Assembly: GCF_030412265.1 (NCBI RefSeq)
Contig: NZ_JAUHLN010000009.1
Location: 1-64,000 of the forward strand
DNA: 64,000 nt
Direction of reading: 5' to 3'
Origin: Fictibacillus terranigra
GTDB lineage: Bacteria; Bacillota; Bacilli; Bacillales; Fictibacillaceae
Within the stretch, counting starts at the first letter, position 1. Each line of letters begins with the position of its first letter. A program made the position numbers and the translations under genes. The notes beneath the pieces were generated by a model that saw only the letters and a list, made by a program, of their open reading frames with translations, was not told the DNA's origin and did not search any database. Below, piece by piece: positions 25,922-42,827 of the stretch.

Positions 25922-25950
25922 TGGCTCTGTTATTCTGGATCCCTAGATGC

Positions 25951-26639: not shown

Positions 26640-26656
26640 GGGAAGGTAGCTGACAG

Positions 26657-27105: not shown

Positions 27106-27147
27106 TTAATGTGCGGTATAGCCTCCATCAACAAGAAGAACTATTCC
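27106..27147 (-). pseudogene. SDR oxidoreductase C-terminal scrap
   Basis: The reverse strand reads GIVLLVDGGYTAH and stop, the standard end of classical short-chain dehydrogenases. Nothing upstream of it is recognisable. Confidence 0.4.
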
Positions 27148-27186
27148 TTTTTAGATTGCTAGATTTCGCCATTATCGAATTATAAC

Positions 27187-27225
27187 AAGCCAATTTTCCT
27201 CGGTTGAAGCAGAATTGGCTTTTTC
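27187..27225 (+). terminator. Rho-independent terminator
   Basis: AAGCCAATT / AATTGGCTT stem with a T5 tail. It insulates the IclR cluster from the upstream graveyard. Confidence 0.7.
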
Positions 27226-27272
27226 TGTCGGAAATAATAACCCAATCTTTTAAATATTTTAAAATTCAGATA

Positions 27273-27331
27273 TTTACAAAAATAACAAACATTGATATCA
27301 TGGTTTTATTCAGTGAAAACATGGTTTTATT
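27273..27331 (+). promoter_or_regulatory. IclR promoter with two direct operator repeats
   Basis: A sigma-A promoter TTTACA (27273-27278) - 17 bp - TATCAT (27296-27301) is followed by two copies of CATGGTTTTATT (27299-27310 and 27320-27331). They are spaced 21 bp, two helical turns, and overlap the -10 and start region. This is the placement expected for autorepression by the IclR protein encoded next. Confidence 0.6.
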
Positions 27332-27347
27332 TTTAAGAGGTGAAAAA

Positions 27348-28130
27348 ATGAAAACAAAGGAATCCATTAATACAGAACGCTATAAAATCAACACATTAGA
27401 AAAAGCATTTGATCTTTTAGAAATATTGGCTAAAAAGAACTCCCTTAATCTGACTGAACTGTCGGCACACTTAGAGCAACCTAAATCCTCCTTATATAGA
27501 ATTATTACAACACTTGAGTTGAGGGGATACATATCGAGAGATGAAACGAATGATAAATATTGTCTAGGCACTAAAACGCTAGAACTAACCAAAAATTTCT
27601 TAGAAGGAAACACACTGCTAAACGTGTCAAAAAGTAAAATGGATCACTTGGTTCAAACCACTGGGGAGTCTGTTAATTTAGGGATATTAAAAAATCATGA
27701 AATTCTTTATGTTGCCAGTATAGAGGGGAGTAACCCTTTAAAGTTTACAGAGGTTGTAGGAGCTAAAGCTCCTTTCCATGCGACAGCCATAGGTAAAGCA
27801 ATCACAGCAAACCTACCTCTTGAACAATTTAATGCCATGATTTCAGATAATAAATTGTATCCGCTTACAGAAAATACAATATGCAGCATGAAACAATTAA
27901 TGGTAGAACTTCAACTTACTAAAGAAAGGGGGATAGCCATCGATAATGAAGAAGTGGTACTTGGAGCCAAGTGTATTGCCGCCCCAATTTTTAATATGTT
28001 TGGAAAGGTTATTGCCGCAATCAGTGTTTCAGGGTCTAAGTATAATTTTACAGATGAGAATTTAAGTCACATCATTACTGAAGTGAAGGGAGCTGCAGAA
28101 CAAATTTCAAAGGAACTTGGTCATAGCTGA
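27348..28130 (+). CDS. IclR-family transcriptional regulator
   Basis: Regulator of 260 aa. The N-terminal winged helix (about 12-70) reads TLEKAFDLLEILAKKNSLNL and LEQPKSSLYRIITTLELRGY. The C-terminal effector domain contains PFHATAIGKAI and AAPIFNMFGKVIAAISVSG. ATG 27348 is chosen because AAGAGGTG lies just upstream; the frame is open further up without a site. It heads the 28-42 kb catabolic cluster. IclR proteins usually sense aromatic, sugar-acid or small-acid effectors. This one probably senses an intermediate of the sugar-acid pathway below. Confidence 0.93.
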   Translation: MKTKESINTERYKINTLEKAFDLLEILAKKNSLNLTELSAHLEQPKSSLYRIITTLELRGYISRDETNDKYCLGTKTLELTKNFLEGNTLLNVSKSKMDHLVQTTGESVNLGILKNHEILYVASIEGSNPLKFTEVVGAKAPFHATAIGKAITANLPLEQFNAMISDNKLYPLTENTICSMKQLMVELQLTKERGIAIDNEEVVLGAKCIAAPIFNMFGKVIAAISVSGSKYNFTDENLSHIITEVKGAAEQISKELGHS

Positions 28131-28163
28131 AATTATTAAATGGCAAAAGGGGAGGAGATTTTC

Positions 28164-29468
28164 TTGAAGAAGCGATGTGTTTCATGGCTGATTTTGATTA
28201 TGCTGTTTGCTGCAGTGCTCAGTGGCTGTAATTCTGACTCCAGTTCGGGAAAAGAAAATCTGAAAGGAGCTACCATTACCCATATGGTGCAATCGGCCAC
28301 CAATAGACCGGAAGCATACAAGGAAATGGCTAAGGAATTTAAAAAAGAAACAGGCATCAATGTCAAGATTGTGGAAGCTCCCTGGGAACAAATGCATGAC
28401 AAGATTATTAATGATTTAGTTACCTCAACTGGCACCTACGATGTTATGGATATTGACAGTGGCTGGGATGGGGAAATGGCACGCTACTTTCAGCCATTGG
28501 ATCCTTATATTAAAAAGTATAAAGTAAACATGGACAATTATTTAGATATTTATAAGAATACAACAGGTATTAGTACACTGACGGGAAATAAGCGCTATGG
28601 TATTCCGTTAACAGGCCAAACGATGGCGATGTATTATAGAAAGGATCTTTTCGAGAAATATAAACTTGATGTACCTAAAACATGGAATGATTTTGATAAT
28701 GCTCTTGAAACATTAAAGCAGGAGAAAGGTGTATACCCTTTTGTAACCGCAGGTGTAAATGTCCAATTGCCCAAATTGTTTTTTGCAAGATATATCCCTC
28801 AGGGTAAACCGCTTTTCACAAAGGACTTTAAGCCTCAGTTTAACAATCAGGATGGGGCTGCCGCTATAGATGGCATGAAAACAATGTTTAAATATGCACC
28901 GCCAGGTTATCTCTCGATGGATACACCTGATGCGGACCCAGTTTTTCTAAATGGAGAAGCTGCCATTATTCTTGCATGGCCCAACACGCTGAGTCCCCTC
29001 TTACAAAACACAAAAAGCTCCAAGATAAAAGATAAATGGGACGCCGTCGCCCCACCTGGACCCGGAAACCTAGGGCCATGGTATCTTTCTATTTCTAAAT
29101 TCTCAAAAAATAAAGAAGCTTCATTTAAATGGATTCAATATCTCTCTGAAAGAGAAAATTCGAAAGAACTGATGGTCAAGTATGGGAATTATTCGACTCT
29201 CAAATCTGTTTGGGATGATCCTGCTGTGAAAGAAGCTATTCCTGGCGCGGAAGGTATTCTTAAAGCCATCAAAAATTGCTTCCTGCCAACCTATTTGATG
29301 CATCCGGCTGGCAATGAGTGGTTTGTCAAAACTGGATCCGCACTGTCCGATGCACTGTCTGATAAGACTTCCACCCAAGAAACACTAGATAAGATGGAGA
29401 AGAATTGGAATAGTGATAAAAAGAAAAATCCCCAAGGCTTAATCTATGAGGAATTAGGCGCGAATTAG
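28164..29468 (+). CDS. Sugar ABC transporter solute-binding lipoprotein
   Basis: Family 1 binding protein, 434 aa, with lipoprotein signal peptide (FAAVLSGC). TTG 28164 is preferred: GGGGAGG lies 8 nt upstream, while the ATG at 28140 has no site. Family features are TYDVMDIDSGWDGEMARYFQP, MYYRKDLFEKYKLDVPKTW and FLNGEAAIILAWP. It delivers the substrate to the two following permeases. Confidence 0.92.
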   Translation: MKKRCVSWLILIMLFAAVLSGCNSDSSSGKENLKGATITHMVQSATNRPEAYKEMAKEFKKETGINVKIVEAPWEQMHDKIINDLVTSTGTYDVMDIDSGWDGEMARYFQPLDPYIKKYKVNMDNYLDIYKNTTGISTLTGNKRYGIPLTGQTMAMYYRKDLFEKYKLDVPKTWNDFDNALETLKQEKGVYPFVTAGVNVQLPKLFFARYIPQGKPLFTKDFKPQFNNQDGAAAIDGMKTMFKYAPPGYLSMDTPDADPVFLNGEAAIILAWPNTLSPLLQNTKSSKIKDKWDAVAPPGPGNLGPWYLSISKFSKNKEASFKWIQYLSERENSKELMVKYGNYSTLKSVWDDPAVKEAIPGAEGILKAIKNCFLPTYLMHPAGNEWFVKTGSALSDALSDKTSTQETLDKMEKNWNSDKKKNPQGLIYEELGAN

Positions 29469-29500
29469 GGATTTAGTGACTGGATATTGGAGGGGATTCC

Positions 29501-30436
29501 ATGCAAACCGAGGCACGCATTCGAATACAGAGCGTCAAGAAATTGCCGCTTTTTAAAATGACCGATAGAAAATGGGCGGTTGTATTTCTAACACCTGGAT
29601 TTATTTTAATGCTGATAGCTTATGTGTATCCTTTACTGTATTCGCTATACCTGAGTTTTTCATCTTGGGATATATTTAATCCGGATGGAAAAATTAAACT
29701 TCAAGGAATGCATAACTATTACAAAATTTTCACCAATGATGCCCTTCTTTCAAGCTTAGTAAGAACATCGATTTTCAGTTTTTCGGCTTTAGTCATACAA
29801 TTGGTTATTGGTGTGTCTGTTGCCCTGCTAGTGACTTCAGAACATCTTAATCAAAAATTCACGTCGTTGGTGCGAGCATTCTTGCTTGCTCCTATGATTA
29901 TTTCTCCTGTGGTAGCGGGGATTTTGTGGAGAACCTTGTACAATCGTGAATACGGGCCTATCAATTACTTTTTAAGCTTGGTGGGCATTTCAAAAAACCC
30001 TTGGATTGCCGATCCAGATACGGCCTTAATGTCCGTTATTATTGTGGAAATCTGGTTGTTTACTCCATTTGTCATCTTTATAATAACAGGCGGTCTTTTA
30101 TCCTTGGCAAAAGAGCCTTTTGAAGCGGCCAAGGTAGACGGGGCCACCCCCTGGCAAATGTTCTGGAAGGTAACCCTGCCGCTTTTGAGACCGGTTATCC
30201 TCATTATTATTACGCTGAGGATAATGGATTTATTTAAAACCTTCGATTACGTCTATTCCATGACTTACGGGGGGCCAGGTGAAAGTACAGAAATTCTGAC
30301 ACTGTCCATATATAAGCAGGGAATCAAGTTTCTTGATGTAACCGGGGCAGCGGCTGCATCCTGGGTTTTATTATTAATTCTATTGCCACCTTCCCTCTAT
30401 TTATTAAGAAAAACATTTATAAGGGAGGGCAGATAA
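29501..30436 (+). CDS. Sugar ABC transporter permease (MalF-type)
   Basis: Permease subunit of 311 aa, six hydrophobic segments. EAA loop EAAKVDGATPWQMFWKVTLP (about 207-226). It is preceded by GGAGGGG and its stop lies only 2 nt before the next start. No ATPase gene is nearby. Confidence 0.93.
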   Translation: MQTEARIRIQSVKKLPLFKMTDRKWAVVFLTPGFILMLIAYVYPLLYSLYLSFSSWDIFNPDGKIKLQGMHNYYKIFTNDALLSSLVRTSIFSFSALVIQLVIGVSVALLVTSEHLNQKFTSLVRAFLLAPMIISPVVAGILWRTLYNREYGPINYFLSLVGISKNPWIADPDTALMSVIIVEIWLFTPFVIFIITGGLLSLAKEPFEAAKVDGATPWQMFWKVTLPLLRPVILIIITLRIMDLFKTFDYVYSMTYGGPGESTEILTLSIYKQGIKFLDVTGAAAASWVLLLILLPPSLYLLRKTFIREGR

Positions 30437-30438
30437 CG

Positions 30439-31272
30439 ATGAAACCAAAATGGCATTGGAAGGTGCTTGGGTACGTGTATCTTACCATCGTGATCCTAGT
30501 CACGCTGTTTCCGGTCTATTGGCTCTTTGTCACCTCGATTAAACTTCAAAAAGACTGGCTGTCCCGGCCGCCCGTTATCTTTCCAAAACAAACCACTTTC
30601 TCAAATTTCCAAAAACTTCTTGCTTCTCCAGAGATGCAACTGGCGATCAAAAACTCCTTTGTTGTTGCAGCTTCAAGTACCGCATTGGCCATGCTCTTTG
30701 GCTCACTGACCGCCTATGTACTAACGAAAATCGTGCTTGGTAACAGGAGAGTAAATGAATTTTTGCTGATTGGAATTTTAATTACAAGGCTTTTCCCTTT
30801 CATTACTCTTCTCATTCCTTACTTCCTTATGATGAGAGACTTCCAGCTGATGGATACATTACAAGCATTAATATTAATCAATACTTCCGTTTTCTTTCCG
30901 TTTGTTGTTTGGCTTATGGTTGGTTTCTTTGAAAATATCCCGCGTGAAATAGAAGAATCCGCCATGATTGACGGATGCAACTTGTGGCAGCGTTTTCTTA
31001 TGATTGTTGTTCCTATTACTAAAACGGGTCTTTCCGTTACAAGCATCTTCATCTTTATTGCATCCTGGAATGAATTTATTTATGCCATCACGTTTACTAC
31101 ACATCAGGCTAAAACCCTGCCTGTTATCATTGGTAGTTTCATTACAGATAAAGGCATTCAATGGGGTGACATGACAGCATTAAGCGTTATTTCTATTACA
31201 CCTGTATTATTAATCGCCATTTTTTCTCAAAAATATTTTGTTAGAGGCCTGACAATGGGTGCAGTCAAATAA
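30439..31272 (+). CDS. Sugar ABC transporter permease (MalG-type)
   Basis: Partner permease of 277 aa. EAA loop ESAMIDGCNLWQRFLMIVVP, C-terminus QKYFVRGLTMGAVK. Its ribosome binding site (AAGGGAGG) lies inside the end of the previous gene, indicating translational coupling. Confidence 0.93.
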   Translation: MKPKWHWKVLGYVYLTIVILVTLFPVYWLFVTSIKLQKDWLSRPPVIFPKQTTFSNFQKLLASPEMQLAIKNSFVVAASSTALAMLFGSLTAYVLTKIVLGNRRVNEFLLIGILITRLFPFITLLIPYFLMMRDFQLMDTLQALILINTSVFFPFVVWLMVGFFENIPREIEESAMIDGCNLWQRFLMIVVPITKTGLSVTSIFIFIASWNEFIYAITFTTHQAKTLPVIIGSFITDKGIQWGDMTALSVISITPVLLIAIFSQKYFVRGLTMGAVK

Positions 31273-31287
31273 TTCGGAGGATTTTAT

Positions 31288-32640
31288 ATGGCAGATATCA
31301 ATATTGATTTGAAACCGGACGGCAGAAGGATTAAGCCACTGCATGGAGTGAATAATGGGCCTGTCTGTTATGGAGCATTGATTGATGTGACCGATTACTA
31401 CAAAAAATTAGAGGTGCCTATGGTCAGGCTGCATGATCCAAACTGGCCGCACCCTAGGGAGGTGGATATACATACCATTTTTCCTGATTTTAATAAGGAT
31501 CCTAGTGACCCTGCAAACTATGATTTTTCAAAAACGGATGAATACATTCAAACCGTGCTCCATACAGGAGCTGGCATTGTTTACAGACTAGGTGAAAGCA
31601 TTGAGCACACTGAAAAAAAGTATTATGTGCATCCGCCAAAAGATTACGATCAATGGGCACAAATCTGTATTGGGATTATTCGACACTATAATGAGGGCTG
31701 GGCAGATGGCTTTCATTATGGCATCGAGCACTGGGAAATCTGGAATGAACCCGATTATGGAACGAGGATGTGGTCGGGCACAGACGAAGACTATTATCAA
31801 TTTTATGAAGTGGTTTCAGTAAAGATAAAAGAAAGATTTCCTCATGTAAAAGTTGGGGGATATGCTGCGGCCGTCGCAACGTCTGACTATTTCGAAGGCT
31901 TTTTGGCTTGGTGTGAAAAAAAGAAGCTGCCTCTTGATTTTTTCTCTTGGCACATTTACACGGATGATCCCTTAAAAGTTCAGGAACATGCGATTCATGT
32001 CCGCAAGCAGCTGGATGCTCATGGATATAAGCGATCAGAAGTCTACCTGAATGAGTGGAACTTCTTTGATGGCGACTGGGAAACAATATGGCTTAAAGGT
32101 AGTGAACGGAAAAGAAGAGACTTATTTACAAAAGGAAAGGGAGCCATTGGAAGTTCCTTTAGTTTATCCGTCTTATTGCTTCTTCAAGACTGTCCTGTAC
32201 AGATGGCCAACTATTATGACGCCCAGCCGACGGCTTTGTTTTGCGGATTATTTGATGCCCATGGCGTACCCCAAAAAACATACTACGCATTTGAAGCCTT
32301 TTCTGAATTGAGCCGGCACCCTCTTCGGATTAAAACTGACATCGCTCCGTCAGTTTCAGGATTGTATTGCTGCGGAGGAAAGGACAATGATGGCAACATG
32401 GTTATTCTAATCAGCAATTACAATGGAGAGAACAGGGAGTATTCCATTGACTTTAATGGAGGCGCAAACCGTAGTATGCAAGTATTGGCAGTGGATGAGA
32501 TTCATAACTTAGAGTTGATTCATCAAACAAAGGTATCCAAATCGATGAAACTAGCGATTGGTGCGAATTCAGCCCTCATGCTTAAAATGGCTGTTAAACA
32601 TGAAGGAACTCATGTCGGCATGAGAGGAAGATTGGAATGA
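31288..32640 (+). CDS. GH39-like beta-glycosidase (cytoplasmic)
   Basis: Clan GH-A (TIM-barrel) glycosidase of 450 aa related to GH39 beta-xylosidases/iduronidases. The acid/base is E154 in EIWNEPDYG and the nucleophile E256 in VYLNEWN. A beta-sandwich tail ends near 440. There is no signal peptide, so it cleaves an imported glycoside. GGAGG precedes ATG 31288. Its stop overlaps the next start (ATGA), so it is coupled to the M81 gene. GH39 members act on xylosides, iduronides, rhamnosides or other glycosides; the sugar here is unknown. Confidence 0.82.
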   Translation: MADINIDLKPDGRRIKPLHGVNNGPVCYGALIDVTDYYKKLEVPMVRLHDPNWPHPREVDIHTIFPDFNKDPSDPANYDFSKTDEYIQTVLHTGAGIVYRLGESIEHTEKKYYVHPPKDYDQWAQICIGIIRHYNEGWADGFHYGIEHWEIWNEPDYGTRMWSGTDEDYYQFYEVVSVKIKERFPHVKVGGYAAAVATSDYFEGFLAWCEKKKLPLDFFSWHIYTDDPLKVQEHAIHVRKQLDAHGYKRSEVYLNEWNFFDGDWETIWLKGSERKRRDLFTKGKGAIGSSFSLSVLLLLQDCPVQMANYYDAQPTALFCGLFDAHGVPQKTYYAFEAFSELSRHPLRIKTDIAPSVSGLYCCGGKDNDGNMVILISNYNGENREYSIDFNGGANRSMQVLAVDEIHNLELIHQTKVSKSMKLAIGANSALMLKMAVKHEGTHVGMRGRLE

Positions 32641-34145
32641 AAAAAATACTAATTGGAGGAATCATCCAAGAAAGCAATACATTCAGTCCGGTAATGAGCA
32701 CGATGAGGGATTTTCGCTCTAATCTTTTTCTGGAAGAAGAAGAAGTTCTCAAGCAGAATACGAAAAACGAGATTTTGGGTTTCATAGAAGGTGCCAGGGA
32801 AGATGGCCTCGAGGTGCAGCCTACCATCTTTGCTCATGCTATTTCTTCCGGGATGTTTACGGCCGATGCCTATAAGGAACTGCAGACCTGGTTTATAACC
32901 AAAGTTAAATCCTTTCATGATTATGAAGGAATTTACCTTGCCCTTCATGGAGCTATGGTTGCAGAGAATTGCGAGGATGTAGAAGGAGACCTTCTTGAAC
33001 AGGTGAGGAGACATGTAGGAGAGAAGTTTCCGATCGTAATTTCACTTGATCTACATGCCAATGTTACGGGGAAAATGGCACGCCTAGTAAATGGAATCAT
33101 TGGTTTTAGGACCTATCCGCACACTGACTTTTTTTCTACAGGATACCGGTCAGCCAAATATTTTTCTTCTTTATTGAAAAAAGAAATAGTACCTGTTATT
33201 GAATTTCGTAAATTGCCAATGATCATTCCGGCTGAAAAAAGCCAATCTTCCCATGGTCCCTTTGCAGATCTATTGGAAGAGGCTGTTATCGGAGAAAAAA
33301 GGGGAGATTCCATTGTAACCTCTCTATTTCCGGTACAGCCATGGCTGGATATAAAAGAAATGGGGGCCTCGGTCGTGGTAGTCGGAGAGAATCGGGAAAA
33401 AGCAAGCGCAGAGGCTGACCGTCTGGCGGAGCTTTTTTGGAATAAGAGGAATGAGTTTGTTGTTGAACTTTCCCAGCTTGATAAAATAGTCGCGAAATTA
33501 AGGGCTGAGGCTATTCGAAAAACTCCATTTGTGGTCTCAGATTCGGCCGACAGCCCGGGTGCGGGGGCTACTGGTGATAGCAACATTGTACTTAAAGAGC
33601 TTCTCCGTTTAAAGGCAGATGAGGATTTACATGTACTTTTGACCATAGTTGACGCTGCGGCAGTAGATCAAGCCATCCATACAGGTTTAGGAAAAAAGGT
33701 CACCCTTTCTCTAGGATATTCCCTAAATCTGAACAAATCCTACGGTTCACCCATCAAGGTAACTGGCACCGTGAAAAGAATTGGAGATGGGCGGTTCTTT
33801 TTAAGTGGGGGTTATGCCGAAAATACTGAAGCCTTTATGGGGAGGTGTGCTGTATTGCAAATAGGCACGATCTCTATCCTTATAACGGAACAGCCTACCT
33901 TTTCAGGAGATCCGGCCATGTACCGGTCAATGGGGATGGAACCATCAGAAGCTGATCTTGTGGTGGTCAAATCGGCGAATCAGTTTCGAGCCGAATATGA
34001 AAAGCTATCAAAACAGATTTTTATTCTGGATACTCCGGGCTGTAGTCCTGCAGATATAACATCGCTTCATTACAAAAACATCGATTTTCCATGTTATCCG
34101 TTTCAAGATCACTTTGAATGGAGGAGGAAATTATATGAAGTGTGA
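32637..34145 (+). CDS. M81-family (MlrC-like) metallohydrolase
   Basis: A 502-aa member of the M81/DUF1485 family, named for microcystinase C. The N-terminal half begins ILIGGIIQESNTFSPV and carries putative metal-binding elements LALHGAMVAE and ISLDLHANVT. The C-terminal MlrC domain (about 300-480) contains DSADSPGAGATGDSN. Homologues in catabolic clusters have amidase or lactonase-like roles that are poorly defined. It overlaps the GH39-like gene by 4 nt and the aminotransferase gene by 11 nt, so it belongs firmly to the same pathway. It suggests hydrolysis of an amide or a cyclic intermediate. Confidence 0.85.
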   Translation: MKKILIGGIIQESNTFSPVMSTMRDFRSNLFLEEEEVLKQNTKNEILGFIEGAREDGLEVQPTIFAHAISSGMFTADAYKELQTWFITKVKSFHDYEGIYLALHGAMVAENCEDVEGDLLEQVRRHVGEKFPIVISLDLHANVTGKMARLVNGIIGFRTYPHTDFFSTGYRSAKYFSSLLKKEIVPVIEFRKLPMIIPAEKSQSSHGPFADLLEEAVIGEKRGDSIVTSLFPVQPWLDIKEMGASVVVVGENREKASAEADRLAELFWNKRNEFVVELSQLDKIVAKLRAEAIRKTPFVVSDSADSPGAGATGDSNIVLKELLRLKADEDLHVLLTIVDAAAVDQAIHTGLGKKVTLSLGYSLNLNKSYGSPIKVTGTVKRIGDGRFFLSGGYAENTEAFMGRCAVLQIGTISILITEQPTFSGDPAMYRSMGMEPSEADLVVVKSANQFRAEYEKLSKQIFILDTPGCSPADITSLHYKNIDFPCYPFQDHFEWRRKLYEV

Positions 34146-35451
34146 TCTTTCCACTAAAAATTTTGAGAAATCGAGACACTATTTAGCCGGTGGTGTCTCA
34201 AGCTCATTGCGTTCCTCAATGAAGCCTGTCCCCCTGTTTGCGACTTCTGGAAAAGGATCTCGCCTACGGGATGTCGATGGCAATGAATATGTTGACTATT
34301 TATTGGCTTACGGCCCACTGATTCTAGGACACTGTCATCCGCAATTAACAGAAGACCTGAAGAGTCAAATGAAAAAAGGTTATACCTATGGCTTACAGCA
34401 TGCTGGGGAAATTGAATTGGCCAAACTGCTGGTTGATATTATTCCTTCTGCGGAGAGAGTAACGTTCAGCGGATCTGGTACGGAAGCGGTTATGCTTGCA
34501 TTGAGGATTGCGAAATCGTTTACGAAAAAAACTAAGATTGTCCGGTTCCAAGGTCACTATCATGGATGGTCTGATTCCATATTCACTTCTTTTCCAACGG
34601 CAGATATGAATAATAACTATTCCTCAGGCGGAAAATTAACCGTTCCTGGAACTTCTGGGCAGAGTGAAAAAAGCCTTGAAGATATCATTGTTCTGCCATG
34701 GAACAATACTGAAGTGCTGGAGGAAACGCTATATGCCCGCCGTAATGAAATCGCTGCCGTTATTACTGAGCCGGTGATGTGTAATTCTGGATGTATCCTT
34801 CCTAAAGAGGGTTATCTTGAAAGAATGAGAGAGCTTACTGAAGAGTTGGGAATCATCTTAATTTTTGATGAAGTAATTACAGGTTTTCGGCTGGGACTTG
34901 GCGGCGCGCAGGGCCGATTTAACATCAAACCGGATTTGACCACGATGGGCAAGGCTATTGCTGGTGGTATTCCGCTAAGTGCCGTTGGCGGAAGAAAAGA
35001 TATTATGGCGCTCATCGAAGAAGGAAAAGTAAATCATCTAGGCACGTTAAATGGCAACCCTATAGCTGTAGCAGCTGCTATTTCGACCATCAACATCTTA
35101 TCAGCACAGCACGGGGCTGTTTTTGACCGTATGGAACGTACTGCCCTAGATCTGGTAGAGGGATTGAGGAATCTATTAGAAAAACATCAAATCAAGGGAG
35201 TAGTTAACCAGATTGGCCCTGTCTTCCATCTGATGTTTACGAATTGCGATGTTGTGACTTCCTATGATGAATTTATGACCAGTGATTCTAAAGCGTATCA
35301 AACCTTTGCCGAGAAGATGTTGTCAGAAGGTGTATTGATTCGTCCAAATGGGCTCTGGTACATCTCAACTGAACATAGTAACCAAGATGTGAAAAACACT
35401 TTGGAAGCAGCAGACAGGGCCATAGCATCGCTTGTCAAGGAATACAGCTAA
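34135..35451 (+). CDS. Class III aminotransferase (glutamate-1-semialdehyde aminomutase-like)
   Basis: PLP enzyme of 438 aa. The fold-type I motifs are SGSGTEAVMLALRIAK (cofactor phosphate), IIFDEVITGFR-type LIFDEVITGFRLG, and the PLP lysine K273 in TTMGKAIAGGIPL. ATG 34135 follows GGAGGAGG, inside the end of the M81 gene. It is not the haem-biosynthesis HemL, judging by context. In this operon it would move an amino group on a sugar-derived or amino-acid-derived intermediate. Confidence 0.9.
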   Translation: MKCDLSTKNFEKSRHYLAGGVSSSLRSSMKPVPLFATSGKGSRLRDVDGNEYVDYLLAYGPLILGHCHPQLTEDLKSQMKKGYTYGLQHAGEIELAKLLVDIIPSAERVTFSGSGTEAVMLALRIAKSFTKKTKIVRFQGHYHGWSDSIFTSFPTADMNNNYSSGGKLTVPGTSGQSEKSLEDIIVLPWNNTEVLEETLYARRNEIAAVITEPVMCNSGCILPKEGYLERMRELTEELGIILIFDEVITGFRLGLGGAQGRFNIKPDLTTMGKAIAGGIPLSAVGGRKDIMALIEEGKVNHLGTLNGNPIAVAAAISTINILSAQHGAVFDRMERTALDLVEGLRNLLEKHQIKGVVNQIGPVFHLMFTNCDVVTSYDEFMTSDSKAYQTFAEKMLSEGVLIRPNGLWYISTEHSNQDVKNTLEAADRAIASLVKEYS

Positions 35452-35472
35452 TTTATTCAAGGGGGATCTCGT

Positions 35473-37242
35473 ATGAGTCATACTGTCGGTTATTCAAAAA
35501 GTTCAGAAACAGAGGAGGAGAAGTACCAAAGCCAAAAAACAAGAAAAATCAGTTTTGAAGGAGATGCCCTTCGAATGTCAATGGATTGGACGGTACAGGA
35601 CCTGGAAAGAGTGCAAGTCCTTGTGGAAAGCTCCCATGGTTCCAGCCACCCGAGTTCGTATCATTTGTCAGAATTAATAAGAGAGGCTGAAAAAGGGGTT
35701 TTCCAGACTGGGGGAAAACCGGCCATTTATACTACTACTGATATTTGTGATGGGGTCGCCCAGGCTCATAATGGCATGCATTATTCTCTGCTTTCGAGAG
35801 ACATGATTGCATCAATGGTAGAAATCCATGCGATGGCCACTCCTTTTGATGCCATGGTATTATCATCGGCTGGGGATAAAGCTGTGCCTGCCCACTTAAT
35901 GGCTATTGCCAGGCTAAACGTACCCTCCGTATTTATTCCCGGAGGCGCAATGGAAGCAGGCCCATGCCTGAGATCGAATGAAGAATTATGGCATATGAGT
36001 GTGGAAGTGGAACAGCAGAAAATGACGAAAGAAGAATTTTTGGCTTTTCAGCGATCTTGTTGTCCGACTTGTGGGGCATGCCAGTACATGGGTACGGCTG
36101 CAACGATGCAGGTGATGTCAGAAGCGCTTGGTCTTGCTCTTCCCTGGTCGGCGCTCATCCCTGCCACTAATGCCGAGATACGGAAAATGGCAAGAGCCGC
36201 AGGACAGCAAATCATGTATCTGGTTGACAAAGAAATTAAACCTCAAATGATTTTAACACGCGAAGCGTTTGAAAATGCGATAATGGTTCACTCCGCCATC
36301 GGCGGATCATTGAATGCCGTCATGCATCTGATTGCGATCGCAAAGGAAGCGGGCGTAGAGATTGATATTGAACTATTTAATGAAATTCATCAAAAAACAC
36401 CAGTACTCGTAAATACAAAAACGGCAGGACATTATCCTACCGAACTGTTCTGGTATGCAGGTGGTGTGCCATTCGTGATGGAACAGCTTAAGGATACATT
36501 GCATCTGGATGTTTTGACCGTGACTGGAAAGACTTTGGGTGAGAATCTCATTGACTACAGTAAAAATGAAATGAAAAACTTTGCAGAAATGTTTTTAGCC
36601 AATTATAAGCTGAACCGAAGGGATGTTATCTATCCTATTTCCAAACCGCTTCAATCTGAGGGCTCGCTTGCAGTATTAAGAGGAAATCTTGCACCAGAAG
36701 GGGCTACTGTCAAAAAATTTGCTGTAGATAAGGACATGATGGTCCATACGGGGAGTGCAAAAGTATTTGACAATGAACGTGAGGCGGTAGATGCCTTGAT
36801 CAAGAAAGAAATTCAGCCAGGAGATGTGGTCATTATCCGCTACCAAGGTCCCCGGGCTATTGGAATGCCGGAGATGTTTTTCATGTCCGAACTTATTGCT
36901 TCCGATCCCATTCTGTCACGAACCACTTCTCTTTTGACAGATGGAAGATTTTCAGGTGCGACGAAAGGGCCTTGTGTTGGTTATATGGAACCAGAGGCCA
37001 TGGACGGAGGGCCTCTTGCTTTTGTTAAAAATCAAGACCTGATTAAGATTGATATACCTAATCGTAAAATTGATGTTGTTGGTCTAGAGGGGAGGGAGTG
37101 CAGCGAAGAAAAAGTGTTGGCTGCTTTTAGAGAACGGAGAATAAGCTGGAATCCGCCGAAATTCAACCACAAAGGCGTTCTTGGGCAATACACTAGATTA
37201 GCAAGGCCAGCGTTGCAGGGAGGATCTTGTTCCAATTCATAA
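35473..37242 (+). CDS. IlvD/Edd-family (sugar acid) dehydratase, atypical cluster ligands
   Basis: A 589-aa dehydratase of the dihydroxy-acid/6-phosphogluconate dehydratase family; length is normal. Core motifs are ICDGVAQAHNGMHYSLLSRD (about 91-110), CCPTCGACQYMGTAATMQ (196-213, with C203) and the C-terminal TDGRFSGATKGPCVGYMEPEA. The usual CDK cluster motif reads GDK here (SSAGDKAVPA, about 131-140), so one conserved cluster cysteine is replaced by glycine. The earlier PC-N/H-H motif is also replaced (SSHPSSYHL). The cluster may be bound differently, perhaps using C92, or the enzyme may be impaired. Presumed role: aldonate to 2-keto-3-deoxyaldonate. Confidence 0.87.
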   Translation: MSHTVGYSKSSETEEEKYQSQKTRKISFEGDALRMSMDWTVQDLERVQVLVESSHGSSHPSSYHLSELIREAEKGVFQTGGKPAIYTTTDICDGVAQAHNGMHYSLLSRDMIASMVEIHAMATPFDAMVLSSAGDKAVPAHLMAIARLNVPSVFIPGGAMEAGPCLRSNEELWHMSVEVEQQKMTKEEFLAFQRSCCPTCGACQYMGTAATMQVMSEALGLALPWSALIPATNAEIRKMARAAGQQIMYLVDKEIKPQMILTREAFENAIMVHSAIGGSLNAVMHLIAIAKEAGVEIDIELFNEIHQKTPVLVNTKTAGHYPTELFWYAGGVPFVMEQLKDTLHLDVLTVTGKTLGENLIDYSKNEMKNFAEMFLANYKLNRRDVIYPISKPLQSEGSLAVLRGNLAPEGATVKKFAVDKDMMVHTGSAKVFDNEREAVDALIKKEIQPGDVVIIRYQGPRAIGMPEMFFMSELIASDPILSRTTSLLTDGRFSGATKGPCVGYMEPEAMDGGPLAFVKNQDLIKIDIPNRKIDVVGLEGRECSEEKVLAAFRERRISWNPPKFNHKGVLGQYTRLARPALQGGSCSNS

Positions 37243-37257
37243 GAAGGGGGCAATCGA

Positions 37258-38019
37258 ATGAAATTACAAGGGAAAGTAGCAGTAATTACAGGGTCATCTC
37301 GCTCCATCGGGGCAGCAGTTGCCAAGCGGTTTGCTCGTGAAGGAGCAAAGGTTGTTATTAATTATAATAAACATCCAGATCTAGCTGAAGAGGTAATGAA
37401 CGATATAGTTGACAATGGCGGACAGGCGATGACTTTCCGTGCAGATGTTTCCCAGGAAGAAGATGTAAAAGCCATGATGGCAGCAGCTGCCTCCCAATTC
37501 GGCACAATTGATATTTTAGTAAACAATGCTGCTATCGATCCTAGAAAAGCTTGGTATGAGATTACCGAGGAAGACTGGGACCATGTAATGGGTGTTAATG
37601 TAAAATCACAATTCTTATGTTCAAAAGCTGTGTTTCCATTTATGAGAAATCAAGGGCAAGGAAAAATTATTAATGTTTCCTCTGTTACCTTTTTTACGGG
37701 TCAAAAGAATTTTCTTCATTATGTTTCTTCTAAAGGAGCCATCATAGGATTTACGAGGGCCTTGGCCAGAGAAGTGGGGGAATATAATATTACAGTTAAT
37801 TGTATAACGCCGGGAGCGGTGTTAACAGAAACAGAATATGAAAAGGTAAGCCCCGAAACGATTGAAACTTCTACAAACTATTTAAAGGAAGCGCAATGCT
37901 TTTCCCGACGTGAAACAGTTGAAGATGTGGAAGGTGCGTTTGTGTTCTTCGCATCTCAGGACAGCAACTTCATCAGCGGCCAGATCCTTAATGTAGACGG
38001 TGGGTGGATGATGCACTGA
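37258..38019 (+). CDS. SDR-family oxidoreductase
   Basis: Classical short-chain dehydrogenase of 253 aa. NAD(P) site TGSSRSIGAAVAKR (residues 10-23) with RSIG in place of the usual GIG, NNAA near 89, catalytic Ser in NVSSVTFFTG, YxxxK as YVSSKGA, C-terminus ILNVDGGWMMH. AAGGGGG lies before ATG 37258. Within this cluster it could oxidise the released sugar to a lactone or a 2-keto-3-deoxyaldonate to the diketo acid. Confidence 0.9.
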   Translation: MKLQGKVAVITGSSRSIGAAVAKRFAREGAKVVINYNKHPDLAEEVMNDIVDNGGQAMTFRADVSQEEDVKAMMAAAASQFGTIDILVNNAAIDPRKAWYEITEEDWDHVMGVNVKSQFLCSKAVFPFMRNQGQGKIINVSSVTFFTGQKNFLHYVSSKGAIIGFTRALAREVGEYNITVNCITPGAVLTETEYEKVSPETIETSTNYLKEAQCFSRRETVEDVEGAFVFFASQDSNFISGQILNVDGGWMMH

Positions 38020-38064
38020 ATACTAAATTATAAGGCACTACATACCCATAGAGGAGGCCAAATA

Positions 38065-38937
38065 TTGAAATTGGTAAGTTTTATGAAAAATGATCAATGT
38101 AATCCGGGTATCCTTATTAACGAAGAGGTGATCGATTTAGAAAAATGGTCCAGGAAGCATAGGGTAGCCCCTGTGACTTCCATCATTGATATTATTAAAA
38201 ACGAATGTCTCTTAAATGAACTGGAGAACTTAACGATGGAGAGCACAAGTGGATGTAGTTTAAAGCTCGAGACGATAACACTTGGACCATGCATCCCCGA
38301 CCCGGAAAAGATTATTTGTGTAGGTCTTAATTATAAGAAACATGCTGAAGAAACAAATACACTTCCACCTGATCACCCCATTTTGTTCAGTAAGTTCCGA
38401 AATTCGTTGGCAGGACACAAGCAGGTTATTGACATTCCAAAGGTCACTAAAAAACTGGACTATGAAGCTGAACTGGCAATTGTCATTGGCAAGGAAGCCA
38501 AGAATGTCCCTCCTGAGAAGGCACAAGAATTTATTTTTGGCTATACCATAGCGAATGACCTGTCTGCCCGCGATTTACAGATGCGTACAACACAGTGGCT
38601 CGCCGGCAAGAACGGTGACGGATTTTGTCCCCTCGGTCCTTGCGTTGTTACTAAAGACGATATTATGGATCCAAACCTCTTAGAAATCACAACGACTCTT
38701 AATGGAGAACGGCGACAATCCTCTAATACCTCTGATATGATTTTTGATTGTATGACACTAGTAAGCAGTATTTCAGAACTCATGACCTTGTACCCCGGGG
38801 ATCTAATTCTGACAGGAACTCCGGAGGGAGTCATTCACGGATACCCTGAAAAAGATCAGCATTATCTTAAAGATGGAGATGAAATCGTGATAGAAATTGA
38901 GCAAATCGGATCATTAAAAAATACATTTTCCAGTTAA
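38065..38937 (+). CDS. Fumarylacetoacetate hydrolase (FAH)-family protein
   Basis: A 290-aa FAH-fold enzyme. Motifs are IICVGLNYKKHAEETN (about 91-106), the metal site YEAELAIVIG (ExE, about 133-142), GYTIANDLSARDLQ and ILTGTPEGV. TTG start 9 nt after GAGGAGG. In sugar-acid pathways, FAH-family enzymes act as 2-keto-3-deoxyaldonate dehydratases or 2,4-diketo-3-deoxyaldonate hydrolases, giving pyruvate plus a small acid. That is the most likely role beside an IlvD/Edd dehydratase and a lactonase. Confidence 0.9.
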   Translation: MKLVSFMKNDQCNPGILINEEVIDLEKWSRKHRVAPVTSIIDIIKNECLLNELENLTMESTSGCSLKLETITLGPCIPDPEKIICVGLNYKKHAEETNTLPPDHPILFSKFRNSLAGHKQVIDIPKVTKKLDYEAELAIVIGKEAKNVPPEKAQEFIFGYTIANDLSARDLQMRTTQWLAGKNGDGFCPLGPCVVTKDDIMDPNLLEITTTLNGERRQSSNTSDMIFDCMTLVSSISELMTLYPGDLILTGTPEGVIHGYPEKDQHYLKDGDEIVIEIEQIGSLKNTFSS

Positions 38938-38976
38938 TCACTGATCTTGATCTTAAATTGTCAGGAGGTGCGGGTA

Positions 38977-40770
38977 ATAGTAAAGTTTTCTCGGAACTTC
39001 ATTTTATTATTGGTTGCATTCTTAATGGGAATTAGTTACAGCTTTGAAGCAAGTGCACAAACAGACAGAAGTAGCAGGAAACAGAATCCAGGTAACCAAG
39101 ATCTGGTAAACCTTCAGCTGCTTGGCCTGACTGATCTCCATGGTTACCTTCAGGCCTTCAACGATGCAGCTAATGGCAAAATAGATACACCAGACGGACT
39201 AGTAACGGTAGGGGGGGCCGCTTATTTAACCACCCACTTAAACCAGTTGGAAAAAGAGCATGAAAATTCCATTCGGATTTCCGTGGGTGATAACTTCATG
39301 GGATGGCCGTTTGAAGTTTATGCTCATCGTAATGAGCCGACGGTAGAATTTTTAAATACCATCAATGTAGAACTCTCCGCTGCGGGAAATCATGAGTTTG
39401 ATTGGTCAAAGAAATTTTTAACCAATCATATGATCAAGGGAAAATGTTTTGGCAGGCCTGATGAGGATAGCTGCTTTATAGATTCATCGGGCAGGCGGTT
39501 TCAGGGTGCCAAGTTTGAATACTTGGCTTCTAATGTTATAGAGGAGAAAACAGGAAAACTTTTATTGAAGCCTTATGTTATCAAACAATTTTCGGACGGT
39601 AAAGGTGGCACAATTCCTGTTGGTTTTATTGGGCTTACCGAAGTTGCTGCAATGATCAAGTCGTTCTCCTTTCAGGAAGGAGTTCTGACCATGGACCCGC
39701 TAAAGATAGCAGCTGATCATTATGCAAAAGAGCTGCAGAACAAAGGTGTAGAAACCATCATTGCTGTTGTTCATGAAGGAGGAGAAGCTGGGACAGATTT
39801 TAATGGCTGCTCAAATCCTCAAGGAATGGTGTTTGATTTCGCAAAAGAAGCCACACCAGCCATTGATGCCGTATTGGCAGGGCATTGGCATACCTCTTTT
39901 AATTGTGTTGTAGATGATCCTGTAGGGAACCCCCGTCCGGTTATAGAAGGAAGTTTTCATGGAAAACTCATCAATGAAGTAAACTTATGGATTGATCCTG
40001 AAAGTAGAGACGTTGTTCGTGACAAAACCACTTCTACTAATCATTTAGTAACAAGAGATGTACCAGCTGATGCGAAGATAAATAATATGGTCTCGTACTG
40101 GAAGAAGCGAGGGGACGAAAAGTATTCACAGCCGGTTGCCAAATTGAAAGGTGACATAACACGAATCCGAAATGAGAATGGAGAAAGCACACTCGCAGAC
40201 TTAATTGCGGATGCCCATTATGCTGCAGGTAAAAAAATGAAAAATCCTGCAGATTTTGCGTTAGTTCCTCCAGGTGCTTTGAGGGGAGGTGATTTACTTT
40301 ATGCAAAAAGCAAAGAGGTAAATGACCAGGATGGACGGATTCTCTTCGGAGAGCAGTGGAAAGCGCATGAATATGTTAACCCTATTCTTGTTGTTACTTT
40401 GACCGGAAAGCAGATCAAGCAAGTACTCGAAGAACAATGGAGATTAAATACTGATGGGACTACTAGCTTTTACCCACTTGCTGTTTCTCATAACGTTCGT
40501 TACTCATATACCAATAAAAAACCTATAGGAGAGAGGGTAAATACGTACGATATAGTGATAAACAACAAAGTATTAAATCCTAAAAAGTCTTACCGTGTTG
40601 CGGCATTGGCTTCTCTAGTAGTAGGAACTGACGGTTATCCTTCATTTAAAAACTACCGTAACCCTATAAGGATAAAAGAAGAGAATGGAAGCTGGGCGTT
40701 CTTGAAATATCTAAAAGATAAAAAGGTATTAGATGTACCTGAACTGGTTAGGGTCTCTAAAATTGAGTAA
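38977..40770 (+). CDS. Secreted 5'-nucleotidase/metallophosphatase (UshA-like)
   Basis: An exported binuclear metallophosphoesterase of about 600 aa. A signal peptide (FILLLVAFLMGISYSFEASA) ends near residue 30. The metallophosphatase domain has TDLHGYL, VGDNFMGWP, GNHEFDW, VHEGGEAG and AGHWHTSFN. The C-terminal 5'-nucleotidase domain ends with a substrate-loop-like GTDGYPSF. No canonical start fits well: AGGAGG (38963-38968) lies 8 nt before an ATA codon at 38977, while the only upstream candidate, TTG 38947, has no site. It therefore uses a rare ATA start or a poorly served TTG. Its place in a sugar operon is unusual. A terminator follows. Confidence 0.85.
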   Translation: MVKFSRNFILLLVAFLMGISYSFEASAQTDRSSRKQNPGNQDLVNLQLLGLTDLHGYLQAFNDAANGKIDTPDGLVTVGGAAYLTTHLNQLEKEHENSIRISVGDNFMGWPFEVYAHRNEPTVEFLNTINVELSAAGNHEFDWSKKFLTNHMIKGKCFGRPDEDSCFIDSSGRRFQGAKFEYLASNVIEEKTGKLLLKPYVIKQFSDGKGGTIPVGFIGLTEVAAMIKSFSFQEGVLTMDPLKIAADHYAKELQNKGVETIIAVVHEGGEAGTDFNGCSNPQGMVFDFAKEATPAIDAVLAGHWHTSFNCVVDDPVGNPRPVIEGSFHGKLINEVNLWIDPESRDVVRDKTTSTNHLVTRDVPADAKINNMVSYWKKRGDEKYSQPVAKLKGDITRIRNENGESTLADLIADAHYAAGKKMKNPADFALVPPGALRGGDLLYAKSKEVNDQDGRILFGEQWKAHEYVNPILVVTLTGKQIKQVLEEQWRLNTDGTTSFYPLAVSHNVRYSYTNKKPIGERVNTYDIVINNKVLNPKKSYRVAALASLVVGTDGYPSFKNYRNPIRIKEENGSWAFLKYLKDKKVLDVPELVRVSKIE

Positions 40771-40785
40771 AAAAGGTCAATTAAA

Positions 40786-40828
40786 AAAAGAGAAGTACGG
40801 GCCTGGTAGGCTCTTACTTTTCTTGTTA
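40786..40828 (+). terminator. Rho-independent terminator
   Basis: AAGAGAAGTA / TACTTTTCTT outer stem and GCCTGGTAGGC inner hairpin, then TTGTTATAT, 16 bp after the 5'-nucleotidase gene. It ends the IclR operon. Confidence 0.65.
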
Positions 40829-40934
40829 TATACATTTCTCCCCGCAATGACTTCGTTAGGGACAGTCCCTTTATAAAAAACGCAAAATACAAAATCAAAT
40901 ATCATATTTTTTAATCGAGTAGGGAGGGTTATTT

Positions 40935-41807
40935 TTGTTAGGTGAAGTGGAATTAGTTATTGATGCCAAAGCGACGCTTGGGGAAGGACCATCTTGGGAC
41001 AGTAAAAGACACTTGCTTTATTGGGTGGATATTCTAGGTCAAAAGCTCCATCTTTACAATCCAACTACTGGTATAAATAAATCTATTGCTCTGGGGCAAT
41101 TGGTAGGATCAGTAGTACCGAGAAAATCAGGAGGAGTTGTACTTGCTCTAGAAAAAGGATTTTATTTTTTAGACTTAGAAACTAAAAGTCTTCAAGCTAT
41201 TTTTGATCCAGAAAGTCATTTAGAAGAGAATCGGTTTAATGACGGAAAATGTGATCCTAAGGGGCGTTTTTGGGCGGGGACCACTGATTCGGTCGGAACC
41301 AACGAGGCAGGTGCTCTGTATTGTTTAGGAAAAGACTTGCTTACGAAAAAGAAATTAGGAAAAGTAAGTACGTCCAATGGACTAGCTTGGTCTCCTGATC
41401 ATAAATACATGTATTTTATTGATACACCTACACGAAAGGTCGTTCAGTTTGAGTATGATCTAAACTCTGGACATATAGAAAATCCCATTGATGTTATCTA
41501 CTTCGTCGACGATGAAGGGCTCCCTGATGGGATGACCATAGACGATGAAGGAATGCTTTGGATTGCCCACTGGGGAGGTTCTAAAATATCAAGGTGGAAT
41601 CCTAAAAGTGGAAAACAAATGCTTTCAGTCCCTATACCTGCATTTTATGTAACGTCTTGTACGTTTGGTGGAAAAGATTTAAACGAGTTATACATAACCA
41701 CTGCAAGAATGGAAAACAATCACTCTAAAATATTTCCAATTGCTGGAGGCGTGTTCCGAATAAAAACGAGTGTAAAAGGTTGCCCAACGTATCAATTCAA
41801 TAACTAA
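40935..41807 (+). CDS. SMP-30/gluconolactonase-family sugar lactonase
   Basis: Six-bladed beta-propeller lactonase of 290 aa. The metal-binding and catalytic residues are visible in TLGEGPSWDSKRHLLYWVDI (Glu near 16), SNGLAWSPDHK (Asn near 149) and LPDGMTIDDEGMLWIAHWGG (Asp near 198). TTG start after GGGAGGG. It hydrolyses an aldonolactone to the aldonic acid, feeding the IlvD/Edd dehydratase encoded upstream. It has its own transcription unit after the terminator at 40786. Confidence 0.9.
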   Translation: MLGEVELVIDAKATLGEGPSWDSKRHLLYWVDILGQKLHLYNPTTGINKSIALGQLVGSVVPRKSGGVVLALEKGFYFLDLETKSLQAIFDPESHLEENRFNDGKCDPKGRFWAGTTDSVGTNEAGALYCLGKDLLTKKKLGKVSTSNGLAWSPDHKYMYFIDTPTRKVVQFEYDLNSGHIENPIDVIYFVDDEGLPDGMTIDDEGMLWIAHWGGSKISRWNPKSGKQMLSVPIPAFYVTSCTFGGKDLNELYITTARMENNHSKIFPIAGGVFRIKTSVKGCPTYQFNN

Positions 41808-42413
41808 TTGCTTAGAGACAAAATCAGAAGGCTATCAATCTACCGATGGAAAAAGAGCATACAAAGCGGCCATGATAATTTGTGATTTTCTTTAAAATCA
41901 CGGTCCGTATTCTGGTGGAACACTTCGTCATCCGCATAAATCAACGGTTTTAAAGAGGATTATCATCAAAACACAATCCTAACCAATTTTAGGGCATGTT
42001 GATAAACAGGATGAAATGATTAAGATTAATATTTCTACAAAACCAAAAATGGGGTTTTATGAGCTGAATATTATGTTTGAAGATGAGATTAGGTTCAGAT
42101 TTATAGTAAGAGCAATAGGCTTAACCGCCAAATCAAAAAGAACCGGGTTAGGGTATATGTTCAGCTTGAAACTCTCCATGGTGCTATTTCCTTGGATGAA
42201 TATTCGCAAGAGAAAAGTCCTGTTATGTTACGCACTGAAAATGGTCCGCAGCTCGTCAAGTTTCAAGAAATATGGAAAGAATGAAGTGGGCGAGATGCCC
42301 CCCGCTAGAAAAATTCCAGATGTTACGCTACTTAAGTTAAAACGATATTAAGAATAAACATATGATTTTTTCGATGGTAGATACTTATAAAGTAATAAAA
42401 GGGGAAATAAAAT
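41808..42413. other. Intergenic region with possible transposase scrap
   Basis: Contains a perfect hairpin GTGATTTT-CTTT-AAAATCAC (41882-41901) and a rightward open stretch, about 42095-42290. That stretch reads VYVQLETLHGAISLDEYSQE and SPVMLRTENGPQLVKFQEIW and vaguely recalls the (S)DNGPQF region of DDE transposases. A longer frame in the same interval looks like chance. No intact gene. Confidence 0.35.
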
Positions 42414-42827
42414 ATGAGGATGTTGCAAGCCATTCCGGCTTTGCCAGTAAGGGATATTAAACGAAGCATAGAGTTTTATTGTGAAAAACTTAGTTTTTCC
42501 CTAGGTTACCATGAAGGTGGTTTCGCTGTCCTTCTTTATAATGACGTTAGACTTATTCATCTTTGGGAAGCCAGTGATGAAAGCTGGCGTACTCGTAGCA
42601 ACTTAAAACCGATCGTCTCGGGTGCAGAATCGTTTATTGCAGGTACTGCCAGTTGTCGAATAGAAGTAGAGGGTATTGATGAACTGTATCAACACATTCA
42701 GCCATTGGATATTTTGCACCCTAATACGCAGCTAACTGACAAGTGGTGGGGAGTACGTGATTTTGGTGTATCAGACCCCGACAATAATCTGATAGAATTT
42801 TTCGAAAACCTTAGCAATCACGGATAA
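42414..42827 (+). CDS. VOC-family (glyoxalase/bleomycin-resistance-like) protein
   Basis: A 137-aa single-pair beta-alpha-beta-beta-beta fold protein. It starts AIPALPVRDIKRSIEFYCEK and ends VRDFGVSDPDNNLIEFFE, the typical VOC pattern with metal-ligand-like residues (His near 54, Glu near 131). AAAGGGGA precedes ATG 42414. Close in style to bleomycin-binding BLMA/BleO-type proteins, but catabolic VOC isomerases or dioxygenases are equally possible here. Confidence 0.85.
   Translation: MRMLQAIPALPVRDIKRSIEFYCEKLSFSLGYHEGGFAVLLYNDVRLIHLWEASDESWRTRSNLKPIVSGAESFIAGTASCRIEVEGIDELYQHIQPLDILHPNTQLTDKWWGVRDFGVSDPDNNLIEFFENLSNHG

Follow-up and report, generated by a model that had tools for sequence, protein, structure and literature searches.

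An operon of Fictibacillus terranigra that may join amide and amine chemistry to sugar-acid breakdown

Why would genes for an amide hydrolase and an aminotransferase lie between a glycosidase gene and genes for sugar-acid breakdown? The question is raised by a gene cluster of Fictibacillus terranigra in a 64,000-base stretch of DNA, here called the window, which makes up the first 64,000 bases of contig C16 (66,632 bases; NZ_JAUHLN010000009.1) from a genome of 4.97 Mb in 16 contigs. Ten plus-strand genes over 27348-38937 are arranged in the order IclR-family regulator, solute-binding lipoprotein, two permeases, glycoside hydrolase family 39 (GH39)-like glycosidase, M81 hydrolase, class III aminotransferase (AT3), IlvD/Edd-like dehydratase, short-chain dehydrogenase/reductase (SDR) and fumarylacetoacetate hydrolase (FAH)-family protein. 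Their packing, the catalytic motifs kept in the GH39-like, M81 and FAH proteins, and the linkage of IclR, AT3 and M81 genes in one other genome are described below. On this basis, the cluster is tentatively read as an operon for the import and breakdown of a small glycoconjugate with an amide- or amine-bearing acid or sugar-acid part.

Gene content and packing of the operon

The genes of the locus, with the Pfam matches by which they were assigned, are as follows.

27348-28130, plus strand: IclR-family regulator (PF01614/PF09339, scanned from the longer open reading frame (ORF) 27204-28130)
28164-29468, plus strand: ATP-binding cassette (ABC) solute-binding lipoprotein, TTG start, lipobox by eye (PF01547, 150.9 bits, scanned from ORF 28140-29468)
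29501-30436, plus strand: ABC permease 1 (PF00528)
30439-31272, plus strand: ABC permease 2 (PF00528)
31288-32640, plus strand: GH39-like glycosidase (PF01229, 71.0 bits, cut-off 26)
32637-34145, plus strand: M81 (MlrC-like) zinc amide hydrolase (PF07364, 286.8 bits; PF07171, 161.8 bits)
34135-35451, plus strand: AT3, class III aminotransferase of the HemL-like branch (PF00202, 229.5 bits)
35473-37242, plus strand: IlvD/Edd-like dehydratase (PF00920, 363.2 bits; PF24877, 189.8 bits)
37258-38019, plus strand: SDR, putative 4-dehydrogenase (PF13561/PF00106)
38065-38937, plus strand: FAH-family C-C hydrolase, predicted substrate a 2,4-diketo acid (PF01557, 256.7 bits)
38947-40770, plus strand: 5'-nucleotidase/metallophosphoesterase (PF02872, PF00149)
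40935-41807, plus strand: SMP-30/gluconolactonase-type lactonase, doubtful operon member (PF08450, 275.5 bits)

The original prediction, made from the sequence alone, had placed enzymes of seven families and an importer here, and the ORF and Pfam analysis recovered every one of them in place on the plus strand. The overlaps that it described among the GH39, M81 and aminotransferase genes are real, amounting to 4 bp for the first pair and, provided that the ATG at 34135 is the start codon of AT3, to 11 bp for the second. From the IclR gene to the FAH gene the ORF list gives no gap above 45 bp and no overlap other than these two, and the end of the IclR gene is 33 bp from the importer genes. This tight packing agrees with the shared operon proposed earlier. 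A 5'-nucleotidase gene, like the IclR gene not mentioned in the prediction, sits between the FAH and SMP-30 genes, and a 164-bp gap makes the SMP-30 gene the least secure operon member. Its 76.2% identical relative on a B. arachidis plasmid, where the annotation shows no sugar gene at a distance of up to 10 kb, adds to the doubt about it. A consensus scan of 25200-44800 returned 35 promoter-like sites (shuffle mean, 47.4) and 13 terminator-like sites (shuffle mean, 16.1), no excess in either case; thus, the scan is of no help in setting the operon ends.

The IclR protein probably controls the operon. Its nearest NCBIfam model is BhcR (227.3 bits, under the cut-off of 350), which is described as a glyoxylate-responsive regulator in an excerpt of PMC11323563; this does no more than hint at a small 2-oxo acid as the signal. 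For the solute-binding protein, a search of 72,556 plasmid records returned no relative at E ≤ 1e-30.

The glycosidase, the M81 hydrolase and the aminotransferase

Alignment of the GH39-like protein to 5z3k and 2bs9 revealed Glu at both catalytic positions, in WNEP and LNEW, and the GH39 profile match covers only residues 68-234 of 450. No hydrophobic signal peptide was seen by eye at the N terminus, and the enzyme therefore probably acts inside the cell. The closest solved sequence (E 2.2e-40) is that of CmGH1, a GH39 beta-glucosidase from Croceicoccus marinus (5z3k). Where CmGH1 has Gln157 and Tyr264 (PMC6933502, available in part), the aligned residues of the window protein are both Glu.

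The metal motifs Glu, Asp-x-His and His are kept in all six aligned M81 proteins. According to a portion of PMC9982164, the zinc residues of the microcystinase MlrC are E39/D167/H169 and H196 (H191 also being printed); the correspondence was made by motif, with MlrC itself outside the alignment. M81 domains and metal motifs are thus common to MlrC and the window protein. The two differ in that the window protein scores 147.5 bits on the MlrC family model, for which the cut-off is 999, and has sugar and amine enzymes as neighbors, among which the peptidases of the mlr set are not found (Pfam families). An M81 paralogue in the same genome (L079, 4616-14516) clusters with amidase, GNAT, amidohydrolase, enolase-superfamily, RpiR and alpha/beta hydrolase genes, and a 41% identical M81 relative from Acidobacteria (L003) adjoins an amidohydrolase gene; the latter locus also has a 41% identical FAH relative 4.4 kb away on the opposite strand. 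A role for M81 in hydrolysis of N-acyl or amide compounds would suit these two classified neighborhoods. Here, gene families were assigned only in part of L079, L003 and the G543 locus described below (L080), whereas L081 and L084 were only listed.

AT3 belongs to a branch of class III aminotransferases that resembles HemL. Its score of 416.7 bits on the hemL equivalog model falls below the cut-off of 527.3, and that of 421.6 bits on the looser PRK00062 subfamily model is above the cut-off of 398. AT3 is 39 and 36% identical to two HemL-like proteins of its own genome, L106 and L107, which were taken as the HemL pair of the genome and not scored on the hemL model. A short gating loop and a Glu near the C terminus are marks of HemL. 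In a seven-protein alignment, the gating-loop region was longer in AT3 and in its relative from genome G543 than in L106 and L107, and the Glu at the C-terminal end was absent from the former two and present in the latter two. This Glu proved unspecific, given that the plasmid proteins L047 and L048 have it together with a longer loop and that L108, from the same genome as AT3, is without it. A second HemL was therefore rejected on the hemL score and the loop length, with no reliance on the Glu, and AT3 is probably a transaminase other than HemL.

Linkage of the IclR, AT3 and M81 genes in a second genome

G543 has a 5-Mb genome with one M81 match, and was first spotted among the M81 neighborhoods, ahead of the AT3 search. 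In its cluster (L080, 5678-14712), an IclR gene (52% identical to that of the window) is divergent from an AT3 gene (60%), which is followed by a GntR gene, an M81 gene (33-34%), a DegT-family aminotransferase gene and genes for a TRAP transporter (DctPQM), the latter in place of the sugar ABC importer of the window. AT3 and M81 are 1.1 kb apart. The cluster is itself a possible amino-compound route. IclR relatives elsewhere were more distant, at 29% in a Paenibacillus rhizovicinus plasmid cluster (L101) and ≤35.9% among the plasmid matches listed. A close AT3 was found in only one M81 neighborhood, that of G543, out of 19 fetched (one being the own-genome paralogue) and three further M81 loci; the others held relatives of at most 27-37%. 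The recurrence of IclR, AT3 and M81 supports a working link among regulator, aminotransferase and hydrolase. No GH39, IlvD, SDR or FAH relative was found in 19.9 kb around the G543 AT3 gene, and the link can thus exist without sugar-acid genes. The amine chemistry looks co-regulated, yet separable from the sugar-acid genes, and of the original prediction the functional tie of the amine genes to each other finds support.

The G543 cluster, lacking GH39, IlvD, SDR and FAH and lying beside TRAP and DegT genes, also favors an explanation in which the operon consists of two modules behind one promoter: an IclR-AT3-M81 module for amide or amine compounds and a sugar-acid module, recently joined by mixing within a sugar-use region and serving separate substrates. 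No close AT3 occurs in the other 33 genomes of the family, so AT3 looks acquired, and several other sugar clusters are present elsewhere in the window. By contrast, the M81 and AT3 genes sit inside the run from GH39 to IlvD, the overlaps of 4 and 11 bp are of a kind that usually means coupled expression, and it is a relative of the AT3-linked IclR of G543 that heads the whole operon. We consider the joined modules somewhat unlikely, and the sequence gives no sign of the separate regulon for M81 and the aminotransferase that the original prediction had named as the outcome that would count against it.

The FAH hydrolase, the SDR and a possible Route III

The FAH protein keeps a His-x-x-Glu motif (in NYKKHAEE) that aligns with that of 49-52% identical relatives on plasmids of P. 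rhizovicinus, P. megaterium and M. dongyingensis. Second FAH copies on the latter two plasmids (28-29% identical) are without it. A catalytic His and Glu mark the C-C hydrolases of the family, as stated in the part of PMC6336799 available. Thus, the lower half of the operon fits the non-phosphorylative Route III. A dehydratase-like second kind of FAH was considered and rejected, given that the window protein falls together with the copies that carry His-x-x-Glu; for the remaining copies, the role is presumed. The IlvD, SDR and FAH genes are adjacent and in the order that Route III needs. Because a 2,4-diketo acid is required by a hydrolase-type FAH, the most fitting role for the SDR is that of a 4-dehydrogenase, and for the dehydratase that of a source of a 2-keto-3-deoxy acid. 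The FAH relatives of P. megaterium and M. dongyingensis neighbor UxaA-family, DHDPS-family and alpha-ketoglutaric semialdehyde dehydrogenase genes, and this branch of FAH is therefore also present in sugar-acid clusters of different layout.

The original prediction had taken the set as one that oxidizes a free sugar to a 2-keto-3-deoxyaldonate and then to pyruvate-level products. The FAH motif fits the second half. With FAH as a hydrolase, the oxidation of a free sugar would call for two dehydrogenases, an aldose 1-dehydrogenase and a separate 4-dehydrogenase; it is not borne out, given that the operon contains a single SDR (the other dehydrogenases of the genome were outside the search) and that the lactonase gene is loosely attached. 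A second SDR-like ORF, 53966-54742, belongs to another cluster of the window.

SDR and SMP-30 families serve in Route III-type routes. In Herbaspirillum huttiense and in degraders of L-fucose and L-rhamnose, a dehydrogenase acts ahead of an FAH-family hydrolase that yields pyruvate and a hydroxy acid, and the clusters include ILVD/EDD-type pentonate dehydratases and, often, ABC transporters and regulators (PMC6336799, in part). The window shares with these systems the dehydrogenase-FAH logic, the ABC importer, the regulator and the FAH His-x-x-Glu. It departs from them in having one SDR, an incomplete set of dehydratase Cys residues, and an added glycosidase, M81 and aminotransferase. This layout, together with the nearest NCBIfam model of the FAH protein, 2,4-didehydro-3-deoxy-L-rhamnonate hydrolase, would fit an ordinary Route III for a glycoside of a deoxy sugar or pentose (such as is known for L-fucose, L-rhamnose and the pentoses), in which M81 and AT3 play only a side role. 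Such a route would need two SDRs, and the model scores are low, at 208.4 bits for FAH (cut-off 500) and 349.6 bits for the dehydratase on L-arabinonate dehydratase (cut-off 882). Since M81 and AT3 would also go unexplained, we regard it as an unlikely account of the operon.

The IlvD/Edd-like dehydratase

The dehydratase conforms to the two-domain pattern of the IlvD/EDD family (PF00920 and PF24877) and is 39% identical to the IlvD of its own genome. It scores 527.1 bits on PRK00911 (cut-off 644), as against its score on L-arabinonate dehydratase given above, and the model scores thus place it nearer to dihydroxy-acid dehydratases than to the named sugar-acid dehydratases. In IlvD/EDD structures a [2Fe-2S] cluster is held by three Cys residues, Cys59, Cys127 and Cys200 in the Rhizobium leguminosarum enzyme (PMC9795676, from an excerpt). 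Mapped by motif, these three places are occupied by Ser, Gly and Cys in the window protein, so that one of the three cluster Cys residues is kept; the original prediction is confirmed as to the family of the dehydratase and finds no support on this point. The three 48-50% identical relatives and the own-genome IlvD are likewise without the first Cys in the alignment and keep the second and third. The Cys of the CDK motif is replaced by Gly in the window protein; the codon is GGG, two base changes from a Cys codon, which makes a single-base error unlikely. This Cys is kept in all four aligned relatives and in the four solved dehydratases compared. Two extra Cys residues (in GPC and the first of SCCPTC) do not occur in the aligned relatives. 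The Cys of a CDG motif was considered as a cluster ligand and dropped after alignment with arabinonate dehydratase.

The loss of the CDK Cys, where aligned relatives and solved dehydratases keep it, also raises the case of a decaying operon, in which the dehydratase has lost its cluster, the 5'-nucleotidase its start codon, and the sugar-acid half no longer works. The 5'-nucleotidase gene has a good ribosome-binding site, yet no ATG, GTG or TTG follows it at a normal spacing; there is only a TTG upstream of the site and a GTG within it. The gene product has a signal-peptide-like start by eye. On the other side, every frame of the operon is open and full length and the GH39, M81 and FAH catalytic motifs are intact, and a single genome offers no second strain for a test of selection. 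Decay of the operon is, in our estimate, very unlikely.

The closest plasmid relatives of the dehydratase, at 48-50% identity, come from records of Parabacteroides, Subdoligranulum and Lachnospira (three of four records viewed). In Lachnospira eligens the relative comes after a gluconate:H+ symporter gene (GntP-type) and an HPr gene, and in Subdoligranulum it lies amid an ABC importer, GntR, Gfo/Idh, a sugar-isomerase-like gene and a GntP permease. A gluconate-type permease by or near two of the three relatives points to sugar acids; the Parabacteroides relative, with no sugar-acid gene nearby, does not.

Distribution of the gene combination

The class, order and phylum genomes searched are overlapping samples, and the thresholds hide distant relatives: E ≤ 1e-170 for IlvD misses proteins at ~50% identity or less, and E ≤ 1e-105 for AT3 misses those below ~43%. 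At E ≤ 0.001 the GH39-like protein matched 1 of 34 family genomes, its own, and 31 of 397 order genomes, all partially except its own; at E ≤ 1e-20 two of the 398 class genomes matched, namely its own and G472, the latter partially. The conserved GH39-M81-aminotransferase-IlvD order that the original prediction proposed to look for was thus not found, no full-length GH39 relative from another genome having been returned in any of these samples. By the refuting outcome that the prediction had itself named, this counts against a conserved pathway. On plasmids, 30 of the 72,556 records matched the GH39-like protein; two matches span at least 80% of its length, at 27.7% identity, and neither of the two neighborhoods examined resembles the window.

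The dehydratase matched its own genome only (1 of 398 class genomes). M81 gave 43 matches at E ≤ 1e-30 in 36 of 348 genomes including its own, the best other being 34% identical, and a search of genome contigs gave three M81 loci at 29-41%, L003 among them, none with the operon. Among 299 class genomes, AT3 was found in G543 besides its own genome; among the 34 family genomes, and again among 81 phylum genomes, it was found in its own genome only; and of four genomes of the family of G543, one matched, namely G543. Plasmid relatives of AT3 numbered 133 records, the best at about 44%; neither of two neighborhoods examined resembles the window. Operon DNA had no match among the plasmids. Viral contigs held 25 aminotransferase loci (28-43% identity in the best segment) and no IlvD relative among 35 pattern-matching stretches.

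A cluster of comparable logic, built in part from other families, lies on the P. rhizovicinus plasmid NZ_CP048287 (L101, 1426-20560). It comprises IclR, GH4, a DHDPS-family gene, an ABC importer, SDR, SMP-30, Gfo/Idh and GNAT, and continues with IlvD/Edd, SDR, M20 peptidase, FAH, glycerate kinase and FAD oxidase. It is like the window in its IclR, glycosidase, ABC importer, SDR, SMP-30 (49%), IlvD/Edd, FAH (52%) and a metallo-hydrolase, and unlike it in having GH4 for GH39, M20 for M81, two SDRs and no annotated aminotransferase, with the glycerate kinase and FAD oxidase as extras. Its IlvD/Edd protein is 31% identical to that of the window, and scores best on PRK06131 (739 bits, cut-off 539). 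The presence of glycerate kinase would be in keeping with cleavage of a hexonic acid to pyruvate and glycerate.

Surroundings of the operon

The contig carries further carbohydrate genes. At 16481-25921 lies a separate sugar cluster with an ABC importer, a BadF-type kinase, a GH63/MGH1-like hydrolase and a GDSL esterase, and, by eye, GntR and mannose-6-phosphate-isomerase-like genes. From 44665 to the end of the window at 64000, and past it as far as position 66491 of the contig, Gfo/Idh, sugar-isomerase-like, PTE-family, FAD-oxidoreductase and GH35/GH42-like genes, with SIS, ROK and further Gfo/Idh-like genes by eye, form a dense carbohydrate region. The stretch before the IclR gene looks decayed and contains a short open frame (26343-26639) that, by eye and by motif, may be a GH2-type glycosidase remnant. 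M20 peptidase, EtfB/EtfA-like, FAD-dependent oxidase-like and Fe-S oxidoreductase genes at 8305-15188 (by eye) are possibly an amino-acid or N-methyl oxidation cluster, and a tyrosine recombinase gene (phage integrase family, PF00589) lies at the left end of the contig (15-632). C16 was considered as a closed circle and this was dropped, since no 20-base word was shared between its last 300 and first 3000 bases, a result that does not exclude a plasmid.

Proposed pathway and implications

In the pathway tentatively proposed for the glycoconjugate operon, the substrate would be imported by the ABC transporter and its glycosidic bond cut in the cytoplasm by the GH39-like enzyme. M81 would then hydrolyze the amide and AT3 take off the freed amino group, after which the IlvD-like dehydratase would give a 2-keto-3-deoxy acid, the SDR would oxidize C4, and FAH would split the resulting 2,4-diketo acid, with release of pyruvate and a hydroxy acid, as in Route III. 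IclR may sense a metabolite tied to the AT3 step. Entry as an acid, set free and deaminated by GH39, M81 and AT3, is favored here because it appears to leave the fewest missing steps for this gene set, and the amine or amide may be carried on the sugar acid rather than on the aglycone. The more specific version, in which amide hydrolase and aminotransferase convert an amino acid or amino sugar acid from a natural N-bearing glycoconjugate into the substrate of Route III through a dehydratase with an altered or absent Fe-S cluster, is improbable in our estimate.

Several points weigh against the proposed pathway. With two of three cluster Cys residues replaced, the central dehydratase may be inactive. 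The operon contains no second dehydrogenase for aldose oxidation, its lactonase is loosely attached, and the 5'-nucleotidase is without a place in the scheme. The G543 linkage is a single case, and its M81 is no closer to that of the window than are other M81 proteins of the class (best rows, 30-34%), so the two linkages may be independent. Most of the M81 neighborhoods fetched were checked just for relatives of window genes, with families unassigned. Finally, the whole gene set occurs in no other sampled genome; it is at least rare, and rarity is not absence.

The chemistry of each family, and the sugar-acid half as a whole, are already known; it is the combination that is absent from the searches made. 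A narrow full-text literature search for it found no paper, and the abstract openings of literature on the M81 family with aminotransferase, operon and catabolism contained nothing on it. If the parts act together, the operon would provide a way of turning a nitrogen-bearing glycoside into pyruvate, and the poorly understood M81 family would gain a likely job beyond microcystin breakdown. The dehydratase, lacking the usual Cys residues, would offer a direct test of whether the IlvD/EDD family needs its cluster.

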